Assembly: GCA_025201365.1 (NCBI GenBank) | Contig: JAIXMF010000015.1 | Coordinates: 372,001 to 436,000, forward strand | Direction of reading: 5' to 3' | Origin: Syncephalis plumigaleata | Taxonomy: Eukaryota > Zoopagomycota > Zoopagomycetes > Zoopagales > Piptocephalidaceae | Length of the DNA: 64,000 bases | Shown here: positions 1 to 55,822 of the stretch, piece after piece | Layout of the letters: each line of letters starts with the position of its first letter | Position numbering within the stretch: the stretch's first letter is position 1 | The notes under the pieces: model-generated | Databases searched by the model: none | What the model was told of the DNA's origin: nothing | The model's input: the letters and a program-made list of their open reading frames with translations, nothing else | Program-made: the position numbers and the translations under genes

Positions 1-1471
1 CCCGTCGTGGTATGTCACAGGAACAACAAGAACAATGATAGTAATGGACACTAGCTGACTTATTAATGATTGCTCGATAGCTGGCAAGTCTACTATTTGA
101 CCACAATGTCCCGTGTATTAACCATGCTGTATCACTATTTGTACATTTATTCCGTCAATAGTTGGTATGTTGTCAGTTTAATAATGATCCCATTCAATGT
201 GCTAACTGTAATATAATCATGCTCAATCCTCATGTGTGTGTCTATTCCGATAGTCGAACGTAGGTTTGCCGATCAATAAATAAACCACCTGACATGCTAC
301 TAATCATACTGCCATATCGACACGGTACATGGATCAATAGGCCGTAAGTAGTAGTCATACCATGTTGATCATACCATTCAATGAGCTAACACCATCCATA
401 TGGAATTATTCCACAAATAGGTGGTACGTATGACTACCATGACCTATCAATTGATGTACTAATCGTAGCCTATTGTTTCATTGTCCATCGATGATTACCG
501 ATAGCTCGTAAGTTCATGTATATCAAATGGCTATTTTGACGTGCTAATCACATCATAATGTTTATTCTACATATTGGCTTGTTAGCACAAAAAGAAGGTA
601 AAATAGTTTGTTGACTATAATGACTACTATGCTAATAGTAATATAAACCAAATGATATGTGAATGCATTTTCAAGAGCCCGTAAGTCAATATTTTGATTG
701 CAATGAATGAGGTACTGACTATGATATGGCACATAACCTACGTATGTTTCTGTGTGATAGTATGTAAGTTACCATCCTTATTGCAATGAATGATGCACTG
801 ACTACGATATGACACGCGATTTACGTATGTTTTTGGATGATAGGACGTAAGTAATCATTCTGATTGCAATGAATGGGGTACTGACTACGATATGACACAC
901 GGTTTACGTATGTTCCTGCATGCTAGACTGTAAGTTGCCATTTTGATTACAATGAATGAGGTACTGACTACGATATGACACACGATTTACGTATGTTTCT
1001 GTGTGATAGTATGTAAGTTACCATCCTTATTGCAATGAATGATGCACTGACTACGATATGACACGCGATTTACGTATGTTTCTGTGTGATAGGGCGTAAG
1101 TGACCATCCTTATTGCAATGAATAATGCACTGACTACGATATGGCACACGATTTGCATATGTTCCTGTATGCTAGACTGTAAGTAATTATTCCAGTCGTC
1201 CTCTACGATATATTAATCACAATACAATACACGCTGATTGAATGATAGGAATAAGCGGTAAGTAATAATTCATAATAATTCAAGTAATAATCATACCCAT
1301 ACTAATCCATTATGATTACAGGACAAGACAAGGACATCATCAAGTAGATATTATAGGTATTCAAGTCAAGAATGGATTGGTGCAAGACCCTCTAGTGTCC
1401 ATGCCATTCAAGTCATTATTCCTTGGACCAAGAAATATATCTACAAGATCATTCAATCATTTATTGAATAA
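1..1471 (+). CDS. putative 3' part of a micro-exon gene
   Basis: Sixteen consecutive intron-like segments, each beginning GTAAGT/GTATGT/GTACGT (one GC-AG at 84) and ending mostly in TAG, fill 10-1321. What lies between them is tiny: 81-83, 162-164, 254-259, 341-343, 421-423, 505-507, about 586-597, about 678-680, 761-763, 844-846, 927-929, 1010-1012, 1093-1095, 1176-1178 and 1249-1257. All these sizes are multiples of three. Joined to bases 1-9 they read through without a stop, one codon per exon for most. If 1249-1257 is skipped, the frame continues from 1322 to a TAA at 1469-1471 (49 further codons, rich in Ser, Tyr, Ile and Lys). If it is included, a TAA falls inside it. No protein family is recognised. 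The start would lie upstream of the window. Translation is inference; the splice-signal spacing is seen directly. It could instead be a spliced non-coding transcript or a decaying minisatellite. Confidence 0.35.
681..1178 (+). repeat. six-copy 83-bp tandem repeat made of intron plus one codon
   Basis: The segment is exactly 6 x 83 bp. Each unit holds an 80-nt intron-like stretch (GTAAGT at its start, an ACTGAC branch-like site in the middle, TAG at its end) followed by 3 nt. The 3-nt spacers read TAT, GAC, ACT, TAT, GGC, ACT. Units 1-3 resemble units 4-6 in order (endings with TGATAG, then GATAG, then TGCTAG), so part of the array probably arose by doubling a three-unit, 249-bp block. Upstream segments 10-680 have the same layout and similar length but share little sequence beyond the splice signals. 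Confidence 0.9.
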
Positions 1472-2232
1472 ATATGTCGTATTCTGACCATCACATCGAT
1501 GATATAAATGTAGTTGATTATTCATGTAGATGAAACTACCTGATACTAACAACTGGCATTCTACACGATAGTTGGACCAGTGGCTGGTAAAAGGGATGCA
1601 CGAGAGATCATGGTACAGGGTGATCATGCAAACAAGTCAAACGGATACTGGCAAGCTATAGCATTCCTGAGCATTACGTCAAGGTGGATAACAAGAGCAA
1701 GGAATAATACGAGTAGTACACGCTTACATTGCGATAATCGATCATGATCAAGATGCTTTATTTTGTCCTAGTATACGTTTGTGAACACACTCGTTTGTTT
1801 ACTCGTTTATTCATTATTTGCGTATCTATTGCCGTGGCATTAATTGATGCTAACAATGTTCGTTAGTACACTCATTATTCGCCATTCATAATTATCGGTT
1901 AGCATTGTCATTCTGTATAGTCATTGTATATCTAGTTGTATACACGTAGTCAAGTCCATTGCTGGCTATATTCCAATGACGAGCACATCATATTGCTGCA
2001 GTACATTAAAAGCTATAATAATATTGTATCGAATAGTGAATATGTTTTATTGATGATGAAATCATTAAATCATAGAGCGATATCAGTAGTTGTATGGTCA
2101 TGCTATGCAAGTGTCATCACATTCTCATTGTCTATATGATTGCTAATCGATTCAATGACATATTAGCATTTTAGTAGAATGAATCAGCTACTGCTCGGTA
2201 CTTACCGTATACTAATAGTGTATCGATTATAA
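1472..2232. other. spacer between convergent transcripts
   Basis: AT-rich DNA between the micro-exon array and the convergent kinase gene. An open stretch of 67 codons around 1936-2139 starts with a non-ATG codon and resembles no family, so I do not call it. No tRNA, element or clear repeat is visible. It probably contains the two 3' ends. Confidence 0.5.
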
Positions 2233-3702: not shown

Positions 3703-3823
3703 ATTGAATGACATTAGGGTACTGACTTTATTGCAAATCAGCATGGATAAAGGCCATAATAGATCTTGAATGCTATTAGGGTCCTGATTATATTGCGGCT
3801 AACGTGAATAAAATCCATAATAG
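3703..3823. repeat. two diverged copies of a ~60-bp direct repeat
   Basis: Two adjacent segments (about 3703-3763 and 3764-3823) share the skeleton TTGAATG...ATTAGGGT.CTGA..TATTGC...GTGAATAAA..CCATAATAG. The copies differ at many positions, so the duplication is old. They lie directly upstream of the kinase gene. No function is evident. Confidence 0.6.
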
Positions 3824-6745
3824 TGTAATGAATTCAGCCGCAATTGAAACATGCATGATTGATATTGAAATGGAATGGAATTCGATTTAATTCCAATAAT
3901 AGCACGATCAACATGATGCATTGGTATGCAACTAGCTAACATTAGAGCATACGAAATAATAGAAAAGTCATTGAATACATTCCAATTATGATGGCAATGA
4001 CCATTAAACCATTGTTTCTACTTGTAAGCCATGCTGTCATTCAGTTATAGTTCGTGATTCAAGCATTAGGTAGTAGTAGTCTATTCATGTCAATGCACGC
4101 ACGATCACGTCAGATGATCAGTATCTATTGTGTTGTTCGATGATTTGCTATACAATTCATTACAATGACTACAGGTAAATATACATCCATCGACATTAAT
4201 GCATAATCAGTGAGTGGATGAGTGATATATTCTAGTTGACTGCATACTGCTGATAACTGAATATGAATGATAGGAATAGCAGTAGTAGTAGCAGCTAGTT
4301 GTATTGGTTGAAAGCAGAGTATGTTCAATAGAGTGTAGAGAATACAGCGATATGTATGAAGTTGATATGGTGTTTATTGGCTGAATGAGAATAGAAGCAG
4401 AGAGACAAGTAGTATGGATAGTAGTAGGAGTGAATATAACAAATGAGCACATATGCTTATAGAATACAAACAAATAAACAAATACCAATCTATTAACAAT
4501 CTATTAATACCATGCTAATGCCGTTATTACCTTCTATTAGTGCCATGTTAGTTATTGATATATACTATGCAAATAAAGATATAGCCATCATATAGGATTG
4601 CCTCGGCACATTTACAATATGCAATACAATGTCAGACAGTAACACTACAAATACAAAGTGCTAAGCGACGCGAACGGTAATAGCCAGCGCGGATATTATG
4701 TATGTACGTGTACTTTCACAACGCACGAGTAGAAGGCGTAGTGTTCGTTACGTATACATGTCACAATTAGAGGAACAAACAGCACTGGTTAGTAATTAAC
4801 ACGAGTACCGCGTACTTGCATATATTTATAAAGCACGAGTAAGTAGTGCAAAGCAGCGAGTGGAGACGTTGTATGCTGGCAAGCAAGTGTGGTGCCTAAT
4901 GCACAACGCGAGTGTTACGTATGCGTACGTGTCCCACATACTACAAGCAATGATCAGCAAGTCAACGTGAATAAAGTGGTACAACGTAGCAAGCAAACGC
5001 TGTGAATAAAGAGCATGGCATGAAATAATAGAAATACACGAGTGAGGACAAGGGAGTGTCGCAAGCAAGTAGACAAGGGAGCGAGAAAGAGAGAACTGAA
5101 TAGAGGATAGATCAGTATGAAAGGCCAGTGGGTATATGCCACGTTGCTCGACAACGAATAACGAACCAATTACTACACAGCGTGAAGAACAAAGTGTGCT
5201 TATGACAGAGCATACAGATTGGAGTGAGGCTGCCGACGAGTAGCGATACAAAATACGAGTACGCGACATACAATCAACATATTCGACAAGTAGTCATTGG
5301 CAAAGCGGTAGACTAGACGGGAATAAGACGACCGACCGAGAACAACACAAAGACTAGTAGTATACGCTTGCAGCTAAGCGCAGCCTGTATATGACTGTAG
5401 ACGAAAGTGGAGTAAGAGGAAAAGCATGAGTTGTAGTGGTGTATGTGTGTCAGAGGACGAATAAAAGAATAAAAGCAGTAGACGAGTGAGAATATGTGCG
5501 TGAACAGCGAGAACACAACGTATGAGCGATATGGCAGCTAATGCGCTGGTGGAATAGTTAGCAAGCACGATAAAATGAATATACTGATAAACATAGTCGT
5601 GATCGTACAGTACATTATCTAGCCAGGATAACATAGCGCGAGTTTGGAAAAGTGCGCCACTGACTTCAACAGCAAGTAATCCTACCAGTGCATTGAAAAA
5701 CAACACCTACGCTATGCGAACAAGCAAGTAATGCATGCCGTTTAATAGTACGATCTTTAGCATTTTAGTGCCAGCTTGCTGGTCGATTAACGTGCAAATA
5801 CGTATAGAAATAGACTGGACACTTAGTACAAGTAGCAATGATACAAATGTAAGTTGATAAACAAACATTGTTATTAGCAGTCAACACGCGTACCACGCAC
5901 ACTTATATAGCTTGGTAGATTATAGGTCAAGATTGCTATGTCTGCGCGATTGAACAGTCTACGCTGATAAGTAAAGGCGCGGAGCAGCAGTAGTGAGCAG
6001 GAGCATTATGTATAACTACGGATCTGGGTAGACTATGAATAAAGTCCATGTTTTGAACATGCTCAACCATTACGGGCCCGCCAACAAAACTCACTGCGTA
6101 CTAGCAACTACGTCACGAGAACGACTGTTTGAATGACGAAGAGAAGGAGGGAAAGACGTAAGCGGTAATGGAGTTATGGAAAGGGAAAGGGTAAATACAA
6201 GCGATAAAGAGTGACTGCATCCTGCTAATATCCTTGCTACACTAAATTACTAGGCTACCGAACACATGCAATCATGCGGGTTGTTCACCTATGACTTTTC
6301 ATATAACGAATCGATGAACATATGAAGCATCTTGGTACGCAAGCATGAGCAGCGTGCATTGTTCTATGGCAGAATTGGTTATAGGGATAATGTTTGCAGT
6401 GACGCTATTCTGCGTGGCGGTCATTGCTCAACAAAATGCGCCATCGAACATTGCTAACCATGCGATAATAGTCGATGGCTAATAGTGAAGTAAGTGGATA
6501 TTGGTACTATATCGTTCATCATTTGCCGTGCTGCTAACTAGTCATGATAACGTGATAGCGTGTTAATAAAATCGGAATAGTATTTGATAATTCCATAGAA
6601 TTACGACGTTAACTAGCTTACGACAAGTAGCTACTCAGTGTTTGTTATGATGACAATGACAACTTTCTTTTACTTAGTATTTATATCGTAATAGTCTATG
6701 TTTACTAATTAATTCATTTATTAAGCATAAAATATTTTTAATGAT
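3824..6745. other. long spacer without a supported gene
   Basis: About 2.9 kb between the kinase gene and UTP6. Several open frames on the minus strand (4125-5706) are Ser/Leu/Tyr/His-rich, lack conserved motifs and overlap one another, so they look like chance frames. The part from about 4660 to 5950 is noticeably enriched in short recurring words such as CGAGTA, GCAAGCAAG and TACGTGT, and two stretches (near 4795-4840 and 5877-5920) look like degraded copies of one another (AACACGAGTACCGCGTAC-like). This may be an eroded repeat. Confidence 0.4.
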
Positions 6746-46884: not shown

Positions 46885-46954
46885 GCTGTAGTGGTGTAGT
46901 GGTATCACAAGACGTTGTGGCCGTCTTAACCCTGGTTCGATTCCAGGCTACAGC
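46885..46954 (+). tRNA. tRNA-His (GTG)
   Basis: A 70-nt cloverleaf: acceptor GCTGTAG/CTACAGC, D arm GTGTAGTGGTATCAC, anticodon arm AGACG-TTGTGGC-CGTCT with anticodon GTG (His), short variable region, T arm CCTGG-TTCGATT-CCAGG. The internal A-box (TAGTGGTGTAGTGG-like) and B-box (GGTTCGATTCC) are intact. TTTTT at about 46965 fits a Pol III stop. No intron. It lies between SOD and MAU2. Confidence 0.95.
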
Positions 46955-47075
46955 AATGATACCATTTTTGCTTCTTTCTTTTTTGTTCCTTTTAGATTCT
47001 GCGCGTCTTTTTCTCGTTTATTTTTTAATTCTTGCTTAACGAACATTGTATAACTCGCTAGACGACAAGTGAGCT

Positions 47076-51963: not shown

Positions 51964-54900
51964 ATGCCGCAAACATACACTGGTGACTCGTCTAGACCCG
52001 GTGTCACTACACCGAATCCTCGAACACGGAGTCAAACGGCTGTTCAACGTATATCAGTAGATGAATCGACTCAGTCTCCGTTATTTCCGGCCACCTATGC
52101 TCCTCCTTTGTCACCATCGTTAGAAGTGGCGGGAGAGATGCATGACGGCTATGCTGCTTCCGAGGCGCATCGCACTCCGCGTCCACGATCAATGACGGCG
52201 GGACCACAGTCGAATGTGCGGTATCATAACCCGTCAACTTATTCGCCGAGATTGCATTCGGAACGATTTCGTTATGTGGGAGCAGCAGCAGCAGCCACTG
52301 TAGTAGCAGCCGAAGTACAAGCTGCAACCAACAATACAAGTAATCATTATCATGAATCAAGCATGCATACATCTAAAGACTATCACTCCACTACTAATCA
52401 TGGTCATAATCAACATACTAATTATCTACATCAGTATCATCCCACACCACTTGATAAACGCGCACTCTCTGCGGAATCACCAATTAATATCGTGCCTAAC
52501 GGAAGGCGTCCGTCAGGAGGTAACCTGAAAAATCCACGTGTCCAAATCACCACCAATCAAGGTGGAGGCTCTTACTCGCCTCATTCGCCAACATCGTTGT
52601 CACCGACAAGTGGCATGGCTAGTTCGCCACGCGGCGATCGACGTTGGCGCGAGAGACGTAACAGTAATGGCAACAACACTCGTATGTCACCCACGCATGA
52701 TGGTCATTTGTACGACATGTCAATCACTGCCGCATTACAGCATACATCTCCATCTGAATCTGATCAGTCACGCGGCTATTTCGCATCAAATGGCCAACCA
52801 CAACAGCAGCAACAACAACAGCAACAGCATCATCATGCAAAGACATCATCACATCAGCGCGTAGAAGTCTAGATTCTAGTAGGGAACGAGCTATTATTGA
52901 ACATTTTGCACCACGTACCGATCATCATGGACATCTTATGCTTCTTCCTCTTCACAAACACCTTTACATGATCATTCTAATAGAAGTACAAATCGTGAAC
53001 AAGAACAACATCAGCAACAACAACAGCATCATCATAATCATCGTCATCAGCAGCATCATCGACAACATCAACATCGTGGTTCTGGTCCAGATCATTCGGC
53101 AGCAAGTGCAGCCACTACAACTACAGAAGGGACTGGACGTATAATTGGCGACAGTAATGTATCGCGCGCCCCTTCTTTACGAGCGGTGGCAGGAGGTAAT
53201 GGACAAGGTTCAGGTCCCGGTCCAGGTCCAGGCATTGGAGGAGAATCCGCCATTAATGGTAATGGCAGTAATAGTAGACCGCCATCAGTGCCAGCATCGC
53301 GTAGAACGTCTATTAGAACGGAATCCCTATTGCTGACCAGTTGCCCGCCATTAATCATGTGAGACAGTTGTCATTAGTACAATTTGAAAGGACACTTGAA
53401 ACAGATGAACCTATCACGCGTTCCACTTCAAGCTTAACGCGTAAGTATATTGACAGAGTAGATAAGAAGCGGTAGGAGTGCGAATGTTGATGTAGCCAAG
53501 AGAAGGGTGGAGGGTGCATGAGTGGGAATCCTATTTGTTTCCAAAATGGAACGACGACAACTCTATTATGAACAGCTAGGATGAATTAGGAGTGTGTGAT
53601 ATGTGTGTGTGTAATGTGTGATGTGTGTGATGTAGACAAACGCACATGTTAGTGACTATTTGTAATGGGTGCCTTGGACATTTTCACTATGCTATGGGAT
53701 AATGTGTGATTAGAGAATGAGAGAGAGAGAAAATAGAGAACACGCCTAGCCAGCCAGTCAGCTAGTCAGAGAGAGTGACTCCTCTCTCTTTTCTCTATTT
53801 CCCTTTATTCCGAACCTGTTCTTACTGTCATCTGCCATTCACGCAGCATTGATCCTTAATTCATTATCCAAATAAGCAAACATACATACGTATAGCCAGT
53901 CCTATCTGGTAGTTCGTAATTAATATTATTTAACAAAAGCGATCGGAAACAAAGAGAGTGGCTAGCTCGGTAAGCATACTACTAGTCCTATAAGAATATA
54001 GGAGAAGGAGTAGCAGCGGCAGCTATCTTGACGGGTGAGGTGGCTATTGAACGGCATTCCTTCGTAGAGATGCCACATTCTTGTTTCCTGACAGGATGAC
54101 TTGTTGAATAGTATTTATTCCGAGATGCAACACTGTTGTATCTTTTATATATGCATTGAATATGGTGTAATTGCTTTGCTAAACGAGTAACACTAACCTT
54201 TTCGCTCTCTATTAGATACACGCGGTATGGCAAGCCAAAGTGGTAATGTCGGCTCACCAATGAGTATTGGTCAAGGGCATGTCAGTAGTGGTGCCGCTAG
54301 TGGCAACAACAACAACAACAACGGTCCTACTACGAGTAATCATAGCAACAGCAATAGTATTAGCTCGCATACAAATCGACGTGCTTCATGGCGTAATAGT
54401 CCAAGTGCGATAGCCTCGCTAGGAGGACGTAAAGATAGCGAATCGAGTGATTTTAGCACACCTAATCACTCGCCAGTCCCAATCCTAATCATGTAGCTGA
54501 ATCGAGTATTATCATCAATGGTGGTACTAGTATCACCACCACTACACCTACTAGTTATACCTCCTCGCCCAATACTACAATTACCGCTATCACATCGGCT
54601 ACAGTGAATGGCGCGAGTACACCCACGGGAATGAATGGTTATACCATGGGATACAATAATGGTACAGCAACGGTGGTAGAGGAAATGGATCTCATGGATC
54701 TAATGGAGCAGCACAGTAGGAGTAACAGCAGGAGCAGGAGGTATATTGACCATGAGTGGAGGACAGGCACCCGCACCAGTACCGGCACTCTACTGGAGTA
54801 AAGCGGCTACATTTGGCAAATCACCGCCTAAAGCATTACGCGCTCACACTGTAACCGTGGTCGGTGAGCGACTCTTCGTGTTTGGTGGATGTGATGCACG

Positions 54901-55822
54901 TGTCTGCTTCCACGATCTCTACATCTTTGACGCCGACACCATGTACTGGTCGAGACCACAAACGCGTGGCGACATACCACGCAACTGTCGTGCTCATTCG
55001 GCCACCCTTGTGGGACGACAGCTGTTTGTATTCGGAGGAGGAGATGGTCCCAACTACTTTAATCATCTATATTTATTGGATACAGGTAAGCTAATGGATT
55101 GTAATGTTGATTTATTTACACTAACGCCATGATTAATAGACACATTAACATGGCGATTAGCACAGCAAAAAGGTGATATACCAGGACCACGTCGTGCACA
55201 CACCACCTGCTACTTTGACGGGTATCTCTATTTATTCGGCGGTGGAGACGGTGTACGCGCTTTGAACGATGTCTACCGATTGAATACGCGTGATCTCAAC
55301 AATCTAGAGTGGAAACAGCTGCAACCCAAAGGTGAACCGCCTATTGCGCGTGGCTACCACACGGCCACACATGTAGGCAGTAAACTGGTGGTGTTTGGTG
55401 GATCCGATGGACATGAATGCTTCAGCGATGCACACGTTCTCGATTTAGTGACGTGCACTTGGTATCCACTCCTGTTGAACGAGGCAATACCTCGTTTATC
55501 GCACACGAGCACACTGGTAGGGTCTTATTTATTTGTTATTGGCGGGCATGACGGCGCAAAGTATTGCAACGATGTGCTTCTGCTCAATCTACTCTCCATG
55601 TGCTGGGAACGTCGACGTGTCTACGGACGACAACCCTCAGGACGCGGCTATCACACGTGTGTCCTATACGACTCGCGTCTCTTCGTCTACGGCGGTTACG
55701 ATGGTCAATCTGTATTCGACGAGGTGTGGATACTAGAATTATCAGCAAGCGCTTATCTACCGCAAATTAGAGGATTTGAGATTGCTGAAATAGACAGTCT
55801 TACAGATGAGCCAGTATCGTAA
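51964..55822 (+). CDS. kelch-repeat protein with disordered N-terminus
   Basis: The C-terminal ~350 residues (from 54746) form a kelch beta-propeller: repeats with LRAHTVTVVGERLFVFGG, CRAHSATLVGRQLFVFGG, RRAHTTCYFDGYLYLFGG, ARGYHTATHVGSKLVVFGG, RLSHTSTLVGSYLFVIGG and GRGYHTCVLYDSRLFVYGG, each with the conserved Gly-Gly and a downstream Trp. The last intron is 55086-55139. The N-terminal part (51964-54740) is Ser/His/Gln/Asn-rich with poly-Gln/His and poly-Asn, and carries a 775-nt intron (53441-54215). Fungal relatives act in signalling or cell polarity (Ral2/Tea1/Kel-type), but the exact partner is unknown. Frame changes near 52870, 53360, 54480 and 54740 lack splice sites and are probably indels, since the downstream frames are plainly coding. 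Confidence 0.85.

Follow-up and report, generated by a model that had tools for sequence, protein, structure and literature searches.

Chains of one-codon exons in a predicted secreted-peptide gene family of Syncephalis plumigaleata

A gene at the start of the analysed stretch of DNA (64,000 nt, here called the window) is divided by 16 successive introns, and most of the exons between them are a single codon long. This gene of a Zoopagales fungus is very probably protein-coding and belongs to a secreted-peptide family whose codons would be joined by splicing, as judged from the sequence of the window and of its paralogs. Genome-wide, one-codon exons appear to be used by the hundred, with as many as 47 in succession.

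Layout of the window gene

Window positions 10–1321 are the intron-rich part of one plus-strand gene (Table 1), with the predicted product MKLSAVLAIAVAVVAVASLVAVEAKPALARRAVVERRAPQKEEPYDTYGTE. Exon 1 would encode a signal peptide and a dibasic site, followed by exons of 3–12 nt in phase 1. A 5-nt phase adapter would lead to the phase-0 one-codon exons of the mature peptide, and the last tiny exon would supply TAA ahead of a 3′ UTR intron. The predicted spliced sequence from ATG to GCG measures 94+33+5+18+9 nt. Signal peptides in this gene and its family were called by eye, and the dibasic site closing exon 1 is putative and presumably Kex2-like, cleavage being predicted only.

Internal exon lengths in the frame-aware model were 3, 3, 6, 3, 3, 3, 12, 5, 3, 3, 3, 3, 3, 3 and 9 nt. 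The initial annotation had described a 16-intron chain with one-codon exons, which both this model and the chain search against resampled sequence (below) confirmed as real. It had also taken every internal exon for a multiple of three. This holds for 14 of the 15, but the exon put at "about 3" nt is the 5-nt exon AGCCC. Its acceptor is the first AG to lie well beyond the branch site, and a length of 5 nt fits the frame. Because this exon shifts the phase, the later triplet exons are whole codons. Across 22 family models, the same place held a 5-nt exon in 16, a 2-nt exon in two and none in four, which were irregular models.

Fifteen introns have GT donors (GTAAGT in 10 of the 16 introns) and one has a GC donor (84–89). 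The distance from branch A to acceptor is 26–48 nt in introns 1–15, and 42 nt in the six repeat-type introns. In the ordinary 54-nt intron of the window's Kelch gene, a single example judged by eye, ~15 nt separate the branch site from the acceptor, in line with the earlier remark that ordinary introns here have nearer branch sites. For intron 16, an acceptor at 1356 was rejected, as intronless copies join TAAGC[AG] directly to GACAAGACAAGG, which begins at 1322.

Table 1 Features of the window gene. Positions are those of the window.
Feature	Position	Strand	Remarks
Exon 1	−84 to 9	+	94 nt, start 85 bases upstream of the window; last 9 nt are 1–9; predicted signal peptide and dibasic site, MKLSAVLAIAVAVVAVASLVAVEAKPALARR plus 1 nt; ends in phase 1
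Intron 1	10–80	+	GTATGT..TAG, 71 nt
Exon 2	81–83	+	CTG, 3 nt; contiguous in intronless paralogs
Intron 2	84–161	+	GC-AG, 78 nt
Exon 3	162–164	+	TTG; contiguous in intronless paralogs
Intron 3	165–253	+	89 nt
Exon 4	254–259	+	TCGAAC, 6 nt; contiguous in intronless paralogs
Intron 4	260–340	+	81 nt
Exon 5	341–343	+	GCC; contiguous in intronless paralogs
Intron 5	344–420	+	77 nt
Exon 6	421–423	+	GTG; contiguous in intronless paralogs
Intron 6	424–504	+	81 nt
Exon 7	505–507	+	CTC; contiguous in intronless paralogs
Intron 7	508–585	+	78 nt
Exon 8	586–597	+	CACAAAAAGAAG, 12 nt; a second acceptor would give a 3-nt AAG exon, frame also kept
Intron 8	598–675	+	78 nt, donor GTAAAA
Exon 9	676–680	+	AGCCC, 5-nt phase adapter (phase 1 to phase 0)
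Six units	681–1178	+	each an 80-nt intron plus one codon exon
Codon exon, unit 1	761–763	+	TAT
Codon exon, unit 2	844–846	+	GAC
Codon exon, unit 3	927–929	+	ACT
Codon exon, unit 4	1010–1012	+	TAT
Codon exon, unit 5	1093–1095	+	GGC
Codon exon, unit 6	1176–1178	+	ACT
Intron 15	1179–1248	+	70 nt
Last coding exon	1249–1257	+	GAA TAA GCG (stop codon)
Intron 16	1258–1321	+	64 nt, GTAAGTAATAAT..ATTACAG, in 3′ UTR; end by eye and from intronless copies
3′ UTR exon	1322–1490	+	start GACAAGACAAGG common to intronless paralogs; 1490 nominal
AATAAA	1467–1472	+	in 3′ UTR exon

Rfam (gathering threshold) and tRNA scans gave no hits in the micro-exon region of the window, and Pfam gave no match above the curated cut-off in seven family proteins. 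Elsewhere in the window, two imperfect copies of a ~60-nt sequence lie downstream of the gene (3716–3840, by eye), and 46885–46955 is a tRNA-His gene (GTG anticodon). The Kelch-repeat protein is encoded at 54737–55801 and shares 79% identity with a Thamnocephalis protein where the two align; the best match of the stretch 55133–55822 is also from Thamnocephalis (85% identity).

Extent of the family in the genome

With exon length left free (1–60 nt), window positions 1–1400 yielded a chain of nine scored introns. Chains found by the same search never exceeded two introns, either in 200 first-order Markov resamples or on the two strands of the remaining window. At locus L025, the chain had 27 introns, compared with a maximum of two in 100 resamples. 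Scored chains were used in place of a crude chain finder, which had returned false chains of 4–6 introns with 6–12-nt exons.

Patterns were counted genome-wide in the 32.6-Mb assembly of Syncephalis plumigaleata (Zoopagales, Piptocephalidaceae). Two successive codon exons with perfect donors (TAGNNNGTAAGT-N65-90-TAGNNNGTAAGT) occurred at 865 places (reversed-pattern control: 2). The exon-1/intron-1 junction CGTCGTGGTATGTC was found at 90 places and the stop exon with the last intron at 63 (controls: 0 each). The signal exon had at least 150 matches (150 of 174 candidates scored), intronless members included. Near-duplicate contigs are counted in all these matches, so gene numbers are lower.

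The stretches analysed were 19 around the top DNA matches, one upstream of the window and seven more. The loci come mostly from the top of the match list and are therefore a non-random sample. The 393 training introns had a GTAAGTTA donor, a TACTAAC branch, a TGTATGATAG-like acceptor and a mode length of 80. In chains of at least 10 introns, with exon length again free between 1 and 60 nt, 438 of 464 exons were exactly 3 nt long; after removal of near-duplicate loci it was 302 of 323.

A frame-aware search gave 22 models; the start motif found no gene in L013, and an extra start in L022 has no model. Thirteen models end in the tiny exon TAAGC[AG] and nine are incomplete or irregular. The longest runs of 3-nt exons were 47 (L022 and L035) and 45 (L023 and L025). 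The L035 model has 72 introns, its tail being uncertain because of irregular 1-nt exons near its end. In the window gene and in the family, a putative signal peptide precedes a long series of micro-exons, most of them symmetric. The initial annotation had regarded the run introns as one family, which holds, with an extent that it underestimated: the window gene is one short member of dozens of loci.

The family also has members without micro-exons (L029–L033, L036–L048), which share its signal exon and often its 3′ UTR. Their mature parts vary widely and, by eye, are His-rich, Ser/Pro-rich or coiled-coil-like.

Splice signals, coding evidence and unit copying

The run introns, each ~80 nt long, carry the signals expected of GT-AG introns: a GTAAGT-like donor, a TACTAAC-like branch site ~42 nt before TAG, and almost no AG between branch and acceptor. 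In 341 introns there were 47 AGs between branch and acceptor against 619 expected. The shortage upstream of the branch was less marked (244 observed, 584 expected). Since AG is rarer there as well, part of the depletion is general, and shared intron ancestry makes these and similar counts non-independent. A simple rule, that the acceptor is the first AG lying 12 nt or more beyond the branch, held for 295 of 304 introns and, applied by eye, also gives the 5-nt exon of the window. The rule was scored on 14 of the 22 models (L010, L016, L017_3870, L019, L020, L021, L024 and L035 were dropped; L018 was kept although its last exon is irregular).

In the donor comparison (11 of the 22 models), 54 of 300 codon exons ended in G, whereas 238 of 300 donors read GTAAGT; the exonic part of the donor is thus not kept, and the intronic part is. 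Comparison of four pairs of loci showed 5 differences in 882 donor-hexamer sites and 422 in 9559 intron-interior sites (p = 3e-11). In 60 introns compared with mononucleotide shuffles, the mean folding z was 0.28 when the whole intron was folded and −0.21 for its 43-nt tail, so a hairpin bringing branch and acceptor closer together is not indicated.

As every run intron has a complete set of signals of its own, the exon need contribute little. It seems unlikely that both ends of a 3-nt exon are recognized simultaneously. From the signals we infer the order and efficiency of splicing, while the self-sufficient introns, the codon exons, the frame and the stop can be read directly from the DNA. 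The initial annotation had expected recursive or intron-defined splicing, a view that the sequence supports. Removal would proceed by intron definition, one intron at a time and in 5′ to 3′ order; with each intron excised, the codon would come to form the end of the growing upstream exon, and the next donor would then be used. The arrangement of splice sites is compatible with recursive splicing. Such genes offer a natural test of the minimum exon size with intronic signals, of 5′ to 3′ order, and of accuracy over 50 steps.

Several observations bear on whether the codons are joined into a product. No stop was found among 438 triplet exons in an unconstrained parse, against 13.5 expected from position-specific composition. 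In 15 non-redundant loci (of 20; five near-duplicates were dropped), it was 0 of 302 against 8.8 expected (P = 1.3e-4). The frame-aware search forbids stops and was therefore excluded from this test. The pattern C..CC..C occurred in the joined mature part of six genes, out of about 18 distinct ones at the loci examined (L022, L025, L027, L028 and L034 in the frame-aware models, L021 in the unconstrained parse), and in all six each of its cysteines has its own exon.

When four of five locus pairs were pooled, codon exons also diverged less than introns: 6 of 396 codon-exon sites differed, and of the 9559 sites in intron interiors 422 did (p = 0.003). For the pair L018/L028, the values were 2 of 108 and 257 of 2645. 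The other three pairs, taken singly, had no clear slowing (0/141 vs 32/3214, 3/96 vs 82/2328 and 1/51 vs 51/1372). The fifth pair, L024/L027 (codon exons 3/27, introns 198/1029), was left out because its chain is interrupted. Relative to L027 (C68), L024 (C193) has about 1.6 kb of extra DNA inside the micro-exon chain. Exon 1 differed at 6 of 94 sites in L015/L016 and was not slower than introns.

Seven exons of the window gene together carry GTCGTG-CTG-TTG-TCGAAC-GCC-GTG-CTC, a string that occurs uninterrupted at 13 places elsewhere (up to three mismatches, four exact; control 0). At eight of these (L041–L048) it is in the family frame and gives RR-AVVERR or close variants. It is in another frame at L036, L037, L039 and L040, and no start was found for L038. 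L030, at the same place as L036, reads the whole joined structure through into the 3′ UTR; a search with one codon-order pattern found no parent gene for it. A protein search of the genome found no intronless copies of two mature Cys peptides, an absence that is uninformative by itself. The intronless copies may be reverse-transcribed copies, or descendants of an intronless ancestor.

The deposited GenBank protein P0126 (BDF22DRAFT_685769, partial) is matched exactly by a spliced path on L025 with 42 introns, 39 internal one-codon exons and a final AAG. Near its start it keeps part of intron 2, which replaces the TCG exon. P0134, on L020, runs through eight successive one-codon exons out of the model frame and past the stop; a zero-length step upstream makes its beginning provisional. 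Both proteins suggest that automatic annotation misreads such genes. A family profile search had 30 matches at E up to 0.01, 19 of them from S. plumigaleata. A related signal peptide is found in P0140, P0141, P0144 and P0147 (jgi or ena records); the first two continue into what is apparently the same intron 1, so relatives may share the architecture.

Stop avoidance, the common cysteine pattern, slower codon exons in the pooled pairs, intronless paralogs and the deposited protein support the coding reading of the one-codon exons. A variant in which the coding run is mostly or variably skipped, so that codon exons are rarely included or appear in varying subsets as combinatorial peptides, is unlikely. 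The splice sites of the chain are alike, skipping of a one-codon exon preserves the frame, and the P0126 path lacks five codons of the model (TGC, CCT, TGT, CGG and one of GAG/GAA). Four of these have GTAGGT or GTAAAT donors and the fifth GTAGAT (or GTAAGT, if GAA is the one omitted), while a GTACGT donor is kept. Real skipping and ab initio prediction would account for these omissions equally well, and the deposited models may be ab initio. A fully skipped product needs no codons, so their conservation, in a fixed cysteine framework and with less divergence than introns in the pooled pairs, speaks against full skipping.

Even less probable are relic genes, formerly spliced and now mostly pseudogenes that gather units. 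The interrupted copy L024 and the nine irregular or incomplete models fit this picture, whereas the conserved donor hexamers argue against it, as do the 13 models open to TAAGC[AG] (in a search that forbids earlier stops) and the lack of stops in the unconstrained parse as well. A minisatellite-like tandem repeat merely resembling introns, with the triplets as unspliced spacer, has very little left in its favour: TRF calls an 83-bp repeat at 697–1184 and the run introns do form one family, yet the first eight window introns fall outside its profile and have the same splice signals, the joined product is constrained (no stops, the cysteine pattern, slower codon exons in the pooled pairs), AG is depleted, and the joined string is contiguous in intronless paralogs.

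Under the preferred reading, joined coding exons, the units themselves appear to be copied. Window positions 681–929 and 930–1178 are a three-unit duplication, identical at 221 of 249 positions, with the codons TAT GAC ACT and TAT GGC ACT. L011 and L012 differ by an 83-nt gap, i.e. one unit. L025 contains two copies, 1.6 kb apart, of a 137-nt stretch that spans almost two introns together with the intervening codon; the copies are identical at 135 of 137 positions and lie beside different outer codons. Long relatives exist for 418 of the 419 introns in 12 models, and for 97 the best relative is in the same gene. Introner-type mobile introns occur as near-identical copies across unrelated genes; on this point the analysis covered the 64-kb window, where a core-intron profile built from 312 introns matched only seven introns, at 681–1235.

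From this we infer that copying of units, each an intron plus a codon, lets genes acquire, drop or exchange individual residues. Homologous introns would let units duplicate, vanish or move, so that secreted peptides could evolve residue by residue without frameshift; the family thereby suggests a route for peptide evolution one residue at a time. With exons almost universally symmetric and splice sites alike, regulated or noisy skipping could yield many peptide variants per gene. Tentatively, and at slightly less than an even chance, we regard these genes as a codon-per-exon system in which one intron plus one codon is the unit of heredity and splicing.

Comparison with known systems

The genus Syncephalis lives as a parasite on other fungi, and Syncephalis pseudoplumigaleata is listed among mycoparasites in PMC6784888, the main text of which does not mention introns and exons. 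A role of the peptides in the interaction with the host fungus is our guess from the signal peptide and the cysteines. Among the literature matches listed (titles and abstract beginnings, with few subscription papers), neither chains of one-codon exons nor this family was described. The nearest architectures known to us are the micro-exon genes (MEGs) of Schistosoma and the bicycle genes of aphids.

According to excerpts of PMC10526429, MEG exons are mostly 15 nt long (6–81 nt, in the abstract 3–81), with 10–20 per gene, and the introns are 0.1–5 kb. The fungal genes resemble MEGs in their predicted secreted products, their many successive tiny exons, mostly multiples of three, and their organization in gene families. 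Unlike MEGs as described there, with 6–81-nt exons and long introns, the fungal family has as many as 47 successive exons of exactly 3 nt, set between mutually homologous introns of only ~80 nt. No schistosome was among the 30 profile matches, in a word-based search that distant relatives can escape.

Internal exons of bicycle genes are longer than the fungal one-codon exons. Bicycle genes are putative effectors with ~17 exons per gene, and a "megacycle" gene has more than 100 microexons; almost all internal exons are in phase 2 (PMC9168663, in excerpt). The likeness lies in a putative effector family with many small internal exons. In the fungus, the exons are one codon long, in phase 0 and between homologous introns; the two systems were compared by description only.

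Exons this short have precedents in plants. Very short exons are regarded as difficult to splice, since the factors bound at their two ends would get in each other's way (excerpts of PMC4674806 and PMC8378409). Exons of 1–3 nt can be spliced (excerpts of PMC4674806 and PMC8831610), and standard read mapping can break down on exons of this kind (PMC8831610). For the single-nucleotide exon of Arabidopsis APC11, recognition of both ends at once was argued to be unlikely, and intron definition with stepwise or recursive removal was proposed (PMC4674806). Those plant microexons, as far as these excerpts describe them, are isolated tiny exons in ordinary genes, whereas the fungal chains would form most of the protein. 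At the ratchet points of recursive splicing, acceptor and donor adjoin and are used in turn, much as proposed here (excerpts of PMC8605326 and PMC6110457). Ratchet points divide long introns, whereas each step in the fungal genes would leave a codon behind.
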